A stretch of DNA of 64,000 nt from assembly GCF_024171955.1 (NCBI RefSeq), contig NZ_JAMTCS010000005.1, forward strand, positions 62,001 to 126,000. The letters run 5' to 3'. Each line of letters opens with the position of its first letter. Position 1 is the stretch's first letter. Source of the DNA: Promicromonospora thailandica. Lineage in GTDB: Bacteria > Actinomycetota > Actinomycetes > Actinomycetales > Cellulomonadaceae. A program made the translations under genes and the position numbers. The notes under the pieces are model-generated. The model did no database searches. It saw only the letters and a list, made by a program, of their open reading frames with translations, and was not told the origin of the DNA. This document shows, one piece after another, positions 27,425 to 56,741 of this stretch.

Positions 27425-29662
27425 GTGTTCGGATCCATCGAGGTGCGCGGTGCGCGCGAGAACAACCTGCAGGGCGTCTCCGTCGACATCCCCAAGCGGA
27501 AGCTCACGGTGTTCACCGGGGTCTCCGGGTCGGGCAAGAGCTCGCTCGTGTTCGGCACGGTCGCCGCCGAGTCGCGGCGCCTGATCGACGAGACCTACCC
27601 GGCGTTCCTGCAGGGCTTCATGCCGTCGCGGCCCCGGCCGGACGTCGACACGCTGTCGAACCTGTCCGCCGCGATCGTGGTGGACCAGGAACCCATGGGG
27701 GCCAACGCCCGGTCCACGGTGGGCACCGCCACCGACGCCTACACCATGCTGCGCGTCATCTGGTCACGGCTCGGCACGCCGCACATCGGCGGGTCGAACC
27801 TCTTCTCGTTCAACGACCCCCAGGGCATGTGCGCGCGGTGCGAGGGCCTCGGCCGGGTGTCGACCGTCGACGTCGAGGCCCTGGTGGACCGGAACCTGTC
27901 GCTCAACGAGGGCGCCATCACCTTCCCGAACTTCGGCGTCGGCACCTGGTACTGGAAGGTCTACGCCGACTCCGGGCTGTTCGACCCGGACAAGCCGCTC
28001 AAGGACTACACCGACACCGAGTGGCACGACCTGATGCACGGCCCGGAGCGCAAGATCGTCTCGAGCGGCATCAACGTCACCTACGAGTCGCTCGTCCCCA
28101 AGATCACCCGGCTGTACCTGGTCAAGGACGTCGAGTCGATGAAGGGGGCCATGCGCGCCGCGGTCGAGCGGCTCGCCACCTTCGAGGCGTGCCCGGCGTG
28201 CGGCGGCACCCGGCTCAACGACCGGGCCCGGTCGTCGCTGGTCCGGGGTCGGCACATCGGCGAGGCCGCGGCCATGCAGCTCACCGACCTGGCCGAGCTG
28301 GTGCGCAGGCTGGAGGACCCGCACGTGCAGCCGATCCTCGACGGCCTGAGCGACCTGCTCGCCACGTTCGAGCAGATCGGGCTGGGCTACCTGTCGCTCG
28401 ACCGGGAGTCCTCGTCGCTGTCCGGCGGCGAGGCCCAGCGCACCAAGATGGTGCGGCACATGGGCTCCGCGCTGACGGACCTCACGTACGTGTTCGACGA
28501 GCCGACCATCGGCCTGCACCCGCACGACGTGCAGCAGATGAACGCCCTGCTCCAGCGCCTGCGGGACAAGGGCAACACGGTGCTCGTGGTCGAGCACAAG
28601 CCCGAGGTGATGGCGGCGGCCGACCACCTCGTCGACATGGGTCCGGGGGCGGGCACGCACGGCGGCACGGTGGTCTACGAGGGCGACCTGGAGGGTCTGC
28701 GCCGGTCCGGCACGGCCACGGGCAAGCACCTGGACCAGGCGGTCACGCTCAAGGACACCCCACGCACGCCCACCGGCAGGCTCCGGATCGAGCACGCCAC
28801 CCTGCACAACCTGCAGGACGTGTCGGTCGACGTGCCGCTCGGGGTGCTCGTCGCGGTGACCGGCGTGGCCGGGTCGGGCAAGAGCTCGCTGATCCACGGC
28901 TGCCTGCCGCGCGACGGGGTGACGTTCGTGGACCAGTCCGCGATCCGCGGCTCGCGCCGTTCCAACCCCGCGACCTACACCGGCATCCTGGAGCCCGTGC
29001 GCAAGCAGTTCGCCCGCGCGAACGGGGTCAAGCCCGCGCTGTTCAGCGCGAACTCGGAGGGTGCGTGCCCGGAGTGCAAGGGCGTGGGCCTCATCTACAC
29101 CGACCTGGCCTTCATGGCCGGCGTCGCGAGCGTGTGCGAGGCGTGCGAGGGCAGGCGGTTCACCGACGAGGTGCTCGGCTACACCCTCCGCGGCAGGAAC
29201 ATCGCCGAGGTGCTCGCCATGTCGGTCGAGGAGGCGCTCGGCTTCTTCACGGAGAAGTCGGTACTCCCGATGCTGACCCGGCTGTCGGACGTCGGGCTGC
29301 ACTACATCTCCCTGGGACAGCACCTCAACACGCTGTCCGGCGGCGAGCGGCAGCGGCTCAAGCTGGCCATCGAGATGGGCGGCGACACCCCGGCCTTCGT
29401 GCTCGACGAGCCCACGGCCGGCCTGCACATGCAGGACGTCGACAACCTGGCCGGGCTGCTGGACCGCCTCGTCGACTCCGGCCGGTCGGTCATCGTGGTC
29501 GAGCACAACCTGTCGGTCGTGGCACGGGCCGACTGGGTGATCGACATGGGCCCGGGCGGCGGGCACGACGGCGGCCGCGTCGTCTTCGAGGGCACGCCGG
29601 CCGACCTCGCCCGGAACGAGGAGTCCCTGACCGGTCGGCACCTCGCGCAGCTGATCGCCTGA
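27425..29662 (+). CDS. UvrA-like ABC ATPase (UvrA2/drug-resistance type)
   Basis: 745 residues with two ABC ATPase halves. Walker A motifs are GVSGSGKSS (near residue 38) and GVAGSGKSS (near 480). Signature motifs are SSLSGGEAQR and NTLSGGERQR, and Walker B motifs are YVFDEPTIGL and FVLDEPTAGL. UvrA zinc-finger cysteines are present (CARCEGLG, CPACGGTRLND, CPECKGVG, CEACEGRRF). It is about 200 residues shorter than housekeeping UvrA because the UvrB-binding/insertion regions are reduced, so it belongs with the UvrA paralogues linked to antibiotic self-resistance or DNA-damage tolerance rather than core repair. The start is one of two consecutive GTGs (27422 or 27425); the AAGGA spacing favours the second. 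Confidence 0.9.
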   Translation: MFGSIEVRGARENNLQGVSVDIPKRKLTVFTGVSGSGKSSLVFGTVAAESRRLIDETYPAFLQGFMPSRPRPDVDTLSNLSAAIVVDQEPMGANARSTVGTATDAYTMLRVIWSRLGTPHIGGSNLFSFNDPQGMCARCEGLGRVSTVDVEALVDRNLSLNEGAITFPNFGVGTWYWKVYADSGLFDPDKPLKDYTDTEWHDLMHGPERKIVSSGINVTYESLVPKITRLYLVKDVESMKGAMRAAVERLATFEACPACGGTRLNDRARSSLVRGRHIGEAAAMQLTDLAELVRRLEDPHVQPILDGLSDLLATFEQIGLGYLSLDRESSSLSGGEAQRTKMVRHMGSALTDLTYVFDEPTIGLHPHDVQQMNALLQRLRDKGNTVLVVEHKPEVMAAADHLVDMGPGAGTHGGTVVYEGDLEGLRRSGTATGKHLDQAVTLKDTPRTPTGRLRIEHATLHNLQDVSVDVPLGVLVAVTGVAGSGKSSLIHGCLPRDGVTFVDQSAIRGSRRSNPATYTGILEPVRKQFARANGVKPALFSANSEGACPECKGVGLIYTDLAFMAGVASVCEACEGRRFTDEVLGYTLRGRNIAEVLAMSVEEALGFFTEKSVLPMLTRLSDVGLHYISLGQHLNTLSGGERQRLKLAIEMGGDTPAFVLDEPTAGLHMQDVDNLAGLLDRLVDSGRSVIVVEHNLSVVARADWVIDMGPGGGHDGGRVVFEGTPADLARNEESLTGRHLAQLIA

Positions 29663-29670
29663 GCGGAAGG

Positions 29671-29744
29671 TGCCCCCACCCGGGTTCGAACCGGGACTGG
29701 GCCGGGTTTAAGCCGGCTGCCTCTGCCAGTTGGGCTATGGGGGC
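29671..29744 (-). tRNA. Atypical tRNA with UAA anticodon, probably tRNA-Leu
   Basis: The minus strand folds into a full cloverleaf of 74 nt. The acceptor stem is GCCCCCA/TGGGGGC, the D-arm has a 3-bp stem (GCC/GGC) and a GG in its loop, the anticodon stem is GCCGG/CCGGC with loop CTTAAAC, and the T-arm is CCCGG-TTCGAAC-CCGGG. The discriminator is A73, and CCA is not fully encoded. Positions 34-36 read UAA, which decodes the leucine codon UUA. A73 fits leucine identity, but the variable region is only five bases (CCAGT), whereas leucine tRNAs normally have a long variable arm. Leucine charging is therefore an inference. UUA is very rare in such GC-rich genomes, so this tRNA might limit a small set of genes, as bldA does in Streptomyces. 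Confidence 0.8.
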
Positions 29745-29788
29745 GCACCCCAGAGACTACCGAGCCCGCCGCCGCGGTAGACCTCTGC

Positions 29789-29938
29789 CGAGATAGAACC
29801 GTGGCGAAGTAGAACCGCAGCGAGATAGAACCGTAGCGAGGTAGAACCCGGGCGCGATGCCAGGTTCTACCTCGCTACGGTTCTACTTCGCTGCAGTTCT
29901 ACTTCGCTGCAGTTCTACTTCGCCCGGGTTCTACCTCG
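29789..29938. repeat. Modular inverted array: four forward and five reverse copies of a 16-bp unit
   Basis: Forward units (29789, 29805, 29821, 29837) follow CGAAGTAGAACCGNNG. After a short spacer, five reverse-complement units (about 29863-29938) follow CTNCNGTTCTACTTCG. The whole can fold into a giant hairpin or cruciform. It occupies the gap between the end of the NADH dehydrogenase gene and the tRNA gene. The same module builds the array at 56630-56741. Confidence 0.9.
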
Positions 29939-29950
29939 GCGGCGCGGGGG

Positions 29951-42391: not shown

Positions 42392-44023
42392 GTGAGGCAG
42401 AGCCGCATCGCTACCTTCGCCGCGGGGGCGGCCGTGGTGGCCGTGACCGTGGCCGGGTGCAGCCCGAGCGACACCGACGACGACGCCGGTCCGGTCACCC
42501 TGGAGACCTGGATCAGCCAGGACATGGAGACGCTGTTCCCCGGTGACGCCGGGTCCTACGACCCCATCAGCGTGCTGGACGTGGTCTACGACGGCCTGGT
42601 CCGGTACGACCCGGAGACCACCGAGCCGTACAACTACGTGGCCGAGTCCATCGAGCCCAACGACGACAACACGGTCTGGACCATCACGATCAAGCCGGAC
42701 CTCACCTTCCAGAACGGTGAACCCGTCGACGCCGAGGCGTTCGCCCGCTCCTGGAACTACACGGCCGACGGCGACAACGGCCTGTACAGCAACTACTTCT
42801 TCAGCATCATCGAGGGCTACGACGAGATGCAGCCCGAGACCGACGACGACGGCAACATCACCACGCCGGGCGCCGCCGACGAGCTCTCCGGGGTGGAGGT
42901 CACCGACGACCTGACCCTCGAGGTCACGCTCAGCTCGCCGTTCGCCGGGTTCGCCACGATGCTCGGCTACACCGGCTTCTTCCCCATCGCCCAGGAGTGC
43001 CTGGACGACGTCGAGACGTGCTCGAAGCAGCCCATCGGCAACGGCCCCTTCCAGGTGACCGAGTGGCAGCAGAGCCAGGAGCTGACCGCCGAGAAGTGGG
43101 CCGACTACCCGCTCGAGGAGACGCCGGGCTACGACGCCATCCACTGGACCGAGTACGCGACCGGCGAGACGGCCGGGTGGGCGGACTTCAAGGCCGGCGA
43201 CCTCGACCTGTCCTTCCCGCCGACGGCGGAGGTCGAGTCCGCGAAGAACGACCCCGACCTCTCCCAGCGCTACGTGGAGGCGCCGGGCGCGGCCCTGACC
43301 TACCTCGGCTTCTCGTTCTACACGGACGGCCCGTGGCAGGACATCGAGTTCCGCAAGGCGATCTCGATGGCGATCGACCGCGAGGGCATCATCTCGTCCC
43401 TCGGCAGCGGTCAGGCCACGCCCGCGGACTCGTGGGTGGTCCCGGGCGGTGTGCCCGGCGGCGAGGCCGGCACGTGCGAGTGGTGCACGTACGACCCCGA
43501 GGCGGCCAAGGCGGCGCTGGAGAAGGCGGGCGGCTGGCCCGAGGGCGAGAAGCTGCAGATCAGCCTGGGCGACGACGAGGCCGAGGTGGAGTACTTCACC
43601 GCCATCGGCAACTCCATCGAGGAGGTGCTCGGCATCCCCTACGAGCTCAACGTCGACCCGGACTACTTCACCACGCGCGCCGAGCACGGCTACGACGGCG
43701 TGTTCCGCAACAACTGGTTCCCGGACTACCCCCTGAACGAGAACTACCTCAGCTTCTACGCCGCGGGTTCCGAGCAGGACAGCCAGTTCGGCTGGTACAG
43801 CAAGGAGTTCGAGGACAAGCTCGACGAGGCGGCCGCCGCCCCGTCGCTCGACGAGTCGGTGGCGCTCTACCAGGAGGCCGAGGCCATCCTCGCCGAGGAG
43901 TTCCCGACCATCCCGTTCCGCTGGAGCTTCAGCGCGACGTACTACAGCGAGCGCCTGACCAACGTGGTCCTCAACCCGTTCTCGGGCGCGCCGATCCTGC
44001 GCGCCGTCGAGGTCGCGGCGTAG
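42392..44023 (+). CDS. Peptide ABC transporter substrate-binding lipoprotein (family 5, OppA/DppA type)
   Basis: A 543-residue SBP_bac_5 protein. The signal sequence ends in the lipobox VAGC near residue 22. Family markers are SVLDVVYDGLVRYDPETTEP, WTITIKPDLTFQNGEPVDAE, and DIEFRKAISMAIDREGIIS. An Asp/Glu-rich surface is notable. The start is GTG at 42392 with GGGAGG seven bases before it; longer open frames upstream are not protein-like. It is the first gene of an operon with two permeases and two ATPases, and it captures oligopeptides or related compounds for import. Confidence 0.94.
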   Translation: MRQSRIATFAAGAAVVAVTVAGCSPSDTDDDAGPVTLETWISQDMETLFPGDAGSYDPISVLDVVYDGLVRYDPETTEPYNYVAESIEPNDDNTVWTITIKPDLTFQNGEPVDAEAFARSWNYTADGDNGLYSNYFFSIIEGYDEMQPETDDDGNITTPGAADELSGVEVTDDLTLEVTLSSPFAGFATMLGYTGFFPIAQECLDDVETCSKQPIGNGPFQVTEWQQSQELTAEKWADYPLEETPGYDAIHWTEYATGETAGWADFKAGDLDLSFPPTAEVESAKNDPDLSQRYVEAPGAALTYLGFSFYTDGPWQDIEFRKAISMAIDREGIISSLGSGQATPADSWVVPGGVPGGEAGTCEWCTYDPEAAKAALEKAGGWPEGEKLQISLGDDEAEVEYFTAIGNSIEEVLGIPYELNVDPDYFTTRAEHGYDGVFRNNWFPDYPLNENYLSFYAAGSEQDSQFGWYSKEFEDKLDEAAAAPSLDESVALYQEAEAILAEEFPTIPFRWSFSATYYSERLTNVVLNPFSGAPILRAVEVAA

Positions 44024-56629: not shown

Positions 56630-56741
56630 CGAGATAGAACCCTGGCGAAGTAGAACTGTGGCGAAGTAGAACTGTGGCGAAGTAGAACGCAGGCTCGCGT
56701 TCTACTTCGCTGCGGTTCTACTTCGCTGCGGTTCTACTTCG
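56630..56741. repeat. Modular inverted array: four forward and three reverse copies of the 16-bp unit
   Basis: Forward units at 56630, 56646, 56662 and 56678 follow CGAAGTAGAACTGTGG, then three reverse-complement copies (CGCTGCGGTTCTACTT type) to 56741. It is the same module as at 29789-29938. The last codons and TAG stop of the leftward amidohydrolase gene (56720-56718) lie within the reverse units, so the array forms part of that protein's C-terminus. Confidence 0.9.

Follow-up and report, generated by a model that had tools for sequence, protein, structure and literature searches.

The tRNA gene at positions 29671-29744 (minus strand) of the window, the 64,000-nucleotide stretch of the Promicromonospora thailandica genome analysed here, raises the question of which amino acid is delivered by a tRNA that has the anticodon UAA and a variable region of only five nucleotides. 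In textbooks, every bacterial leucine tRNA has a long variable arm. The preliminary description of this DNA had envisaged either a second, non-standard UUA decoder or a tRNA charged with another amino acid. Our analysis argues, at a probability that we put at about 0.88, that this is a true leucine tRNA which decodes UUA and which has lost its long variable arm.

ARAGORN calls a tRNA-Leu(TAA) at 29669-29744 on the minus strand, a span that takes in two bases of an incomplete CCA; the tRNA proper is a class I molecule of 74 nt ending with A73, and other tRNA genes of the genome likewise lack a complete encoded CCA. Against the Rfam tRNA model RF00005 the same segment scores 52.8 bits (E 1.7e-8) over the entire model (1-71), above the gathering cut-off of 29, and is thus a member of that family. 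The acceptor stem, read off the sequence, is GCCCCCA/TGGGGGC (7 bp). The D-arm (29719-29735) reads GCC-CAACTGGCAGA-GGC; its stem GCC/GGC has 3 bp followed by a C13.A22 mismatch, and element scoring places in it A14, A15, G18, G19, A20a and the C12-G23 pair, which is a mark of class I UUR tRNAs. The anticodon loop CTTAAAC gives the anticodon UAA (positions 34-36 of the tRNA, 29708-29710 of the window by our reading of the sequence), and the T-stem is CCCGG/CCGGG. Between the two lies the variable region CCAGT (29696-29700), 5 nt long in both the sequence and the Rfam alignment, of which the final base is U48, the partner of A15.

Comparison among relatives gives the same picture. Over 18 sequences from the family and the order, the cloverleaf pairs at 20 positions are formed in all 360 cells, and 7 of the pairs show changes on both sides, a number that none of 500 shuffles reached (mean 3.5). 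The single-sequence thermodynamic fold, for its part, does not contain the canonical D-arm (z = -1.38, with 20 of 200 shuffles equally stable), and we accept the cloverleaf because of the covariance model and the comparative pairs, not because of the energy fold. An improved class II fold or a different anticodon is out, as the Rfam alignment runs end to end and all the pairs are kept. The clean cloverleaf that had been described from the letters, with its UAA, A73, 3-bp D-stem and five-base variable region, is thus confirmed by ARAGORN, by the covariance score that had been suggested as a check, and by the pairs kept in the 18 sequences. With its 5 nt, the variable region falls below the 10 nt from which a variable arm counts as class II in the portion of PMC7609411 available to us. 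The same portion describes allo-tRNAs, with 12-bp acceptor branches of the 8/4 or 9/3 type, and other non-canonical bacterial tRNAs; they share with the window tRNA a cloverleaf that is unusual for its anticodon, but here the acceptor branch is a normal 7/5 and the class alone is changed.

The surroundings are those of an isolated gene. At its 3′ end the tRNA faces a gene that encodes a UvrA-like ABC protein and stops at 29662, the two being arranged tail to tail. On the other side, 10-15 nt upstream of the tRNA, the motif TAGTCT (29754-29759, minus strand) is exact in 11 of the 15 aligned sequences, the window included, and fits TANNCT in 14 of them, while the DNA farther upstream is not conserved; judging from this alignment, it is the probable -10 box of the tRNA promoter. 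Between this promoter and the point where a gene for a pyridine nucleotide-disulphide oxidoreductase (probably an NADH dehydrogenase) ends, we noticed an intergenic repeat (29767-29944) made of tandem 16-bp units such as TAGAACCGTAGCGAGG, which form two inverted arms of 85 nt with a complementarity of 84%. A second copy (56635-56736) separates two convergent ORFs, a position as for a two-way terminator. Elsewhere in the window ARAGORN also called a tRNA-Val(CAC) of 92 nt (43218-43309, minus strand), unsupported by Rfam at its cut-off and probably false, since a normal tRNA-Val(CAC) exists elsewhere in the genome.

Is this tRNA a second decoder, standing beside a canonical one? The genome assembly amounts to 5.38 Mb in 24 contigs, with an estimated completeness of 99.8%, and the search with RF00005 returned 51 matches, every one of which was fetched and typed. 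The class II leucine tRNAs among them have the anticodons CAA, CAG, GAG and UAG only, with variable arms of 13-17 nt, and no class II tRNA-Leu(UAA) was found in the set. A class II UAA pattern run against the genome gave no match either, and a class II tRNA-Leu(UAA) of another family, used as query, found the tRNA-Leu(CAA) alone. A canonical copy elsewhere in the genome was thus absent by three routes, a result to be read with the 24 contigs in mind, as a gap could hide one. Of the proposal of a second, non-standard UUA decoder, the non-standard class I shape stands and the word second does not. The extreme rarity ascribed to UUA was borne out: the codon occurs twice among the 17,164 codons of the gene-like ORFs of the window and three times among 25,705 in other, partly overlapping stretches fetched from the genome.

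The next issue is whether leucyl-tRNA synthetase (LeuRS) could recognize such a molecule. As given in the available text of PMC9976931, the essential elements of E. coli tRNA-Leu are A73, the A15-U48 pair, G18G19 and A20a; the sequence and folding of the long arm are uncorrelated with leucylation, and an E. coli tRNA-Leu truncated of its arm is still active. The human mitochondrial tRNA-Leu(UUR), again in that text, is charged without a long arm through A14 and A73. From this source we took six elements (A73, A14, A15, U48, G18G19 and A20a) and scored them in the 45 distinct tRNAs of the genome. All six occur together in five of these, the four class II leucine tRNAs and the window tRNA, and A20a is absent from all the other 40. 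In the fetched loci, 65 of the 76 distinct class I sequences with UAA and 20 of the 22 with CAA keep the full set, a count restricted to the tRNAs named Leu by ARAGORN (L249, which the program read one base off as tRNA-Phe(AAA), is left out). Among the exceptions, some come from a start site misplaced by the parser, and others are real.

One kind of exception is G73 in place of A73, present in 5 of the 76 distinct class I UAA sequences. The UAA tRNAs with G73 are found at L262, L270 and L280 (Phycicoccus), at L264/L286 and L298 (metagenome-assembled genomes), and at L078:1483-1567 in genome G054. The last one is a class II molecule in which G73 and an encoded CCA give the usual make-up of a serine tRNA; in the 289 kb of this genome that we covered, at 71% GC, no informative UUA site was found from which the meaning of the codon could be read.

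What UUA means was addressed by masking one codon at a time, aligning the proteins to homologues and counting the residue found opposite, the comparison proteins being themselves read by the standard code. UUA is too rare in P. thailandica and its family for such a count, and what it means there has to be judged from relatives in other families. Indeed, the filtered test found no UUA site with two homologues in the window and in the loci of its relatives, and the unfiltered tally around the locus was mixed: leucine came first, though it made up only part of the sites, and was followed by arginine, glycine and alanine. We attribute this mixture to antisense frames, as many of the alignments were near 33% identity.

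Two genomes were more informative. G070 belongs to another family of the order and has 54% GC. All its 49 RF00005 matches were typed, one of them being a tRNA-Ser(CGA). Among them the UAA and CAA leucine tRNAs both belong to class I, and those for CAG, GAG and UAG belong to class II; a single additional ARAGORN call, a tRNA-SeC, has no Rfam match. G292, from another order of the same class, is a single contig of 48% GC with 37 RF00005 matches, all typed; both of its UUR leucine tRNAs are 73-nt class I molecules, and no long-armed one was found among the 37. When G070 was aligned with G039, leucine stood opposite UUA at 34 of 65 sites, opposite UUG at 124 of 215, opposite CUA at 59 of 132 and opposite CUG at 166 of 306, against 33 of 245 for the control codon AUU. 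With G292 aligned to G039 and G070 the corresponding counts were 54/108 for UUA, 123/213 for UUG, 312/550 for CUU and 78/507 for AUU, and with G039 alone, of which the UAA tRNA is class II, UUA faced leucine at 43 of 86 sites. UUA and UUG are hence found opposite leucine about as often as the CUN codons in both genomes.

No dedicated synthetase seems to be needed for the short tRNA. A LeuRS was present in all 59 of the genomes surveyed, the one under study and its relatives, and 58 of them have one full LeuRS among the matches listed. Two forms of the enzyme exist, in which the match to the TIGR00396 profile is broken near position 142 or near position 569, and because both co-occur with class I tRNA we consider the form of LeuRS to be independent of the tRNA class. 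A second protein over the LeuRS cut-off was seen, among the matches listed for the 59 genomes, in the P. thailandica genome only (L110:1358-3244, contig C18). This LeuRS-like protein of 628 amino acids scores 671.9 bits, over the TIGR00396 cut-off, with profile positions 227-407 unmatched, which we take to be the region of the CP1 editing domain. It is possibly a resistance or side-pathway enzyme.

Where does the short form come from? Our tree covers 122 tRNAs of six genomes, four of them sampled partly, and is based on 69 columns with midpoint rooting; the anticodon and the variable region, except for its last base, were left out, as were tRNAs that the parser failed to place and those with a repeated name. 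The smallest clade that holds all six class I leucine tRNAs has nine tips and a support of 0.995. All nine are UUR leucine tRNAs, six of class I and three of class II, and the two classes are intermixed; the class II UAA tRNAs of G039 and G055 fall inside this clade and that of G049 falls outside. Recruitment from another isotype through an anticodon change is out, as in the tree the class I leucine tRNAs have no partners other than leucine tRNAs of the UUR kind. For the same reason, the short form most likely arose by loss of the arm within the UUR leucine tRNAs, and the mixture of classes in the clade may reflect more than one such loss, or exchange. Raw identity to the window tRNA is 0.71 for tRNA-Lys(UUU) and 0.70-0.74 for the class I UUR tRNAs of other genomes.

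The body of the molecule appears to have changed along with the arm. The class I tRNA-Leu(UUR) set is recognizable by a UAA or CAA anticodon, a variable region of 5-6 nt, C12-G23, C13.A22, A20a and G21, each of which the window tRNA has. C12-G23, C13.A22 and G21 are each present in 92 of 92 class I UUR sequences and A9 in 89 of 92 (6 of the initial 98 were left out on account of their parsing), and the class II UUR tRNAs have G12-C23 in 11 of 12 and G9 in 11 of 12. Position 9 contacts the 12-23 pair in the tRNA core, and the combined change therefore looks like a matched re-tuning of a smaller core.

The short form is not a peculiarity of this genome. Among the 59 relatives (the P. thailandica genome included), 56 have a match to the window tRNA; all 30 loci that were fetched and typed, weaker matches being left out, are class I with the anticodon UAA, and the class II UAA pattern matched in only 2 of the 59. 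When the order was sampled more widely, 221 of 248 genomes showed a match for a UAA tRNA, whichever its class, among the matches listed. In an order sample of 79 genomes, patterns detected a UUR leucine tRNA in 75. The UAA tRNA belongs to class I in 65 of these and to class II in 4; for the CAA tRNA the numbers are 26 (class I) and 40 (class II). In 19 genomes both are class I, and in 72 at least one is. None of the 75 has both classes for one anticodon, a mutual exclusion that is a statement on pattern matches (8 rows that did not resemble tRNAs were left out of the tally). Since the patterns miss D-arm variants, as they did for the UAA tRNAs of G049 and G055 and for the CAA tRNA of G292, all recovered by typing, these tallies are lower bounds. 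The reverse arrangement, a class I tRNA-Leu(CAA) with a class II tRNA-Leu(UAA), also exists, in G049 (family f14) and in G054 and G085 (family f3).

Beyond the order, 64 of 78 genomes of a class-wide sample have a match, and class I UAA or CAA tRNAs recur across many families. Family f34 keeps a class II UAA tRNA, which presumably resembles the Streptomyces bldA, and one genome of this family (G327) has a class I CAA tRNA. In a sample of the phylum, where 73 of 90 genomes have a match, class I was seen in a few further families (f54, f56, f67 and f69), and the tRNA-like matches in the other families outside the class are class II. This large bacterial class thus breaks the long-arm rule for one or both of its UUR leucine tRNAs. 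A strict single pattern run against named GTDB genomes returned 41 loci, 34 of which are Actinomycetota by title, including Mycobacterium sp. ENV421, Gordonia asplenii, Tessaracoccus antarcticus, Actinomadura rupiterrae and Janibacter terrae; the seven others come from four cyanobacteria, a Saprospiraceae, an Acidobacteria MAG and a Chloroflexi MAG. Eighteen loci were scanned for further tRNAs: the seven outsiders all lie in multi-tRNA clusters, and the 11 actinomycetotal genes are all solitary. In three cyanobacterial tRNA arrays (L261, L276 and L294) all five leucine tRNAs are short-armed, with lengths of 74-78 nt.

How does this compare with what has been described? A 2023 review confines short-armed tRNA-Leu to animal mitochondria in the text available to us. 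The organellar tRNA-Leu(UUR) resembles the window tRNA in having A73 and A14 and no long arm, and it is charged by LeuRS according to the passages of PMC9976931 at hand; unlike the window tRNA, which is chromosomal and bacterial and has conserved stems, it has a floppy anticodon branch, and we claim no special kinship. From bacteria, short-armed leucine tRNAs are only hinted at in the papers that we found, the nearest accounts, in the parts accessible to us, being PMC6582537 and PMC11541572. The former, in its accessible part, notes a short variable loop in one mycobacterial tRNA-Leu(TAG) that belongs to a cluster. Such mycobacterial and cyanobacterial arrays have class I leucine tRNAs in common with our case, but they assemble many adjacent tRNAs, with all five leucine anticodons in the three cyanobacteria, whereas the window tRNA stands by itself and no other UUA decoder was found in its genome. 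In the open-licence literature we found no paper that describes class I as the regular form of tRNA-Leu(UUR) in Actinobacteria; the available portions of PMC7609411, PMC8450103, PMC4524478, PMC4033280, PMC9569102, PMC10272220, PMC5733544 and PMC4465971 hold no relevant account, and older work on Micrococcus luteus tRNAs or on Anabaena tRNA operons may hold one. Specialists may know the short form, as gene finders name such genes tRNA-Leu without comment. With the class II bacterial tRNA-Leu(UAA), bldA included, the window tRNA shares the anticodon UAA, A73, A14, A15-U48, G18G19, A20a, usually G21, and the decoding of UUA; it differs by its 5-nt variable region and by C12-G23 with A9 instead of G12-C23 with G9.

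These observations suggest how the short tRNA would work. The housekeeping LeuRS would charge it through A73 and the corner formed by the D- and T-loops (A15-U48, G18, G19 and A20a), requiring neither the anticodon nor the variable arm, and one LeuRS most likely charges both tRNA shapes. A core re-tuned from G9 with G12-C23 to A9 with C12-G23 would accommodate the smaller body. Once charged, the tRNA would read UUA as leucine, and perhaps UUG by wobble, beside the class II CAA tRNA. It may in this way fill the functional place of the Streptomyces bldA tRNA, where we claim the decoding of UUA alone and not a part in development.

A different charging has to be weighed against this, in which the tRNA carries a non-leucine amino acid and UUA is reassigned or ambiguous in the lineage. 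The identity table of PMC9976931, as far as it is available to us, lists a large variable region among the bacterial leucine elements, G73 has replaced A73 in some relatives, and UUA is nearly unused, a state in which a codon can change its meaning. Nevertheless, the window tRNA is very probably charged with leucine, because it has all six leucylation elements, because it groups with leucine tRNAs in the tree and because UUA aligns with leucine in G070 and G292, two relatives that have only class I UUR tRNAs. The proposal of another amino acid is thus very improbable. Still less credible is a remnant or a tRNA-like RNA with no role in translation, such as a donor for lipid or peptide modification, to which one could be led by a single gene in a repeat-rich intergenic region that lacks a complete encoded CCA. 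The compensating changes preserve the helices, the probable promoter box is conserved, no other UAA tRNA was found, and the incomplete CCA is common to other tRNA genes of this genome.

Another possibility accepts the leucine tRNA but makes it a regulator of the bldA kind, UUA being reserved for genes that the abundance of the tRNA would turn on or off. The codon is used very seldom, and where gene-like ORFs of the window contain it, in two cases, it stands close to the start (codons 13 and 20). However, both codons could precede the true start and two cases prove nothing. Moreover, the broader developmental role may stop at Streptomycineae, with no early-position bias elsewhere, according to the accessible text of PMC4255298, and the class I form also decodes UUA where it is commoner, as in G292 with its 108 aligned sites. 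We regard such a regulator as rather unlikely, and retain a leucine tRNA with a lost arm as the preferred reading.

The short form is no spare copy but the sole decoder of UUA in the three genomes in which all tRNA matches were typed (G000, G070 and G292). Across the class, leucine tRNAs would be split by shape, class II for CUN and class I for one or both UUR codons, and one might speculate, as an idea that is more likely wrong than right by a wide measure, that this split shields half of leucine decoding from toxins, nucleases or phage factors that recognize the long arm, that the mobile arrays with class I leucine tRNAs throughout extend the same principle, and that UUA is drifting from its leucine identity in the lineages with G73. 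The distribution of the two shapes helps to tell which of the toxins or drugs that target tRNAs would leave the UUR set untouched. It also offers a natural experiment, in the loss of a variable arm and in one LeuRS that recognizes two tRNA shapes. Finally, the UUA tRNA of many Actinomycetes will escape any search for bldA-like genes that takes a class II shape for granted.
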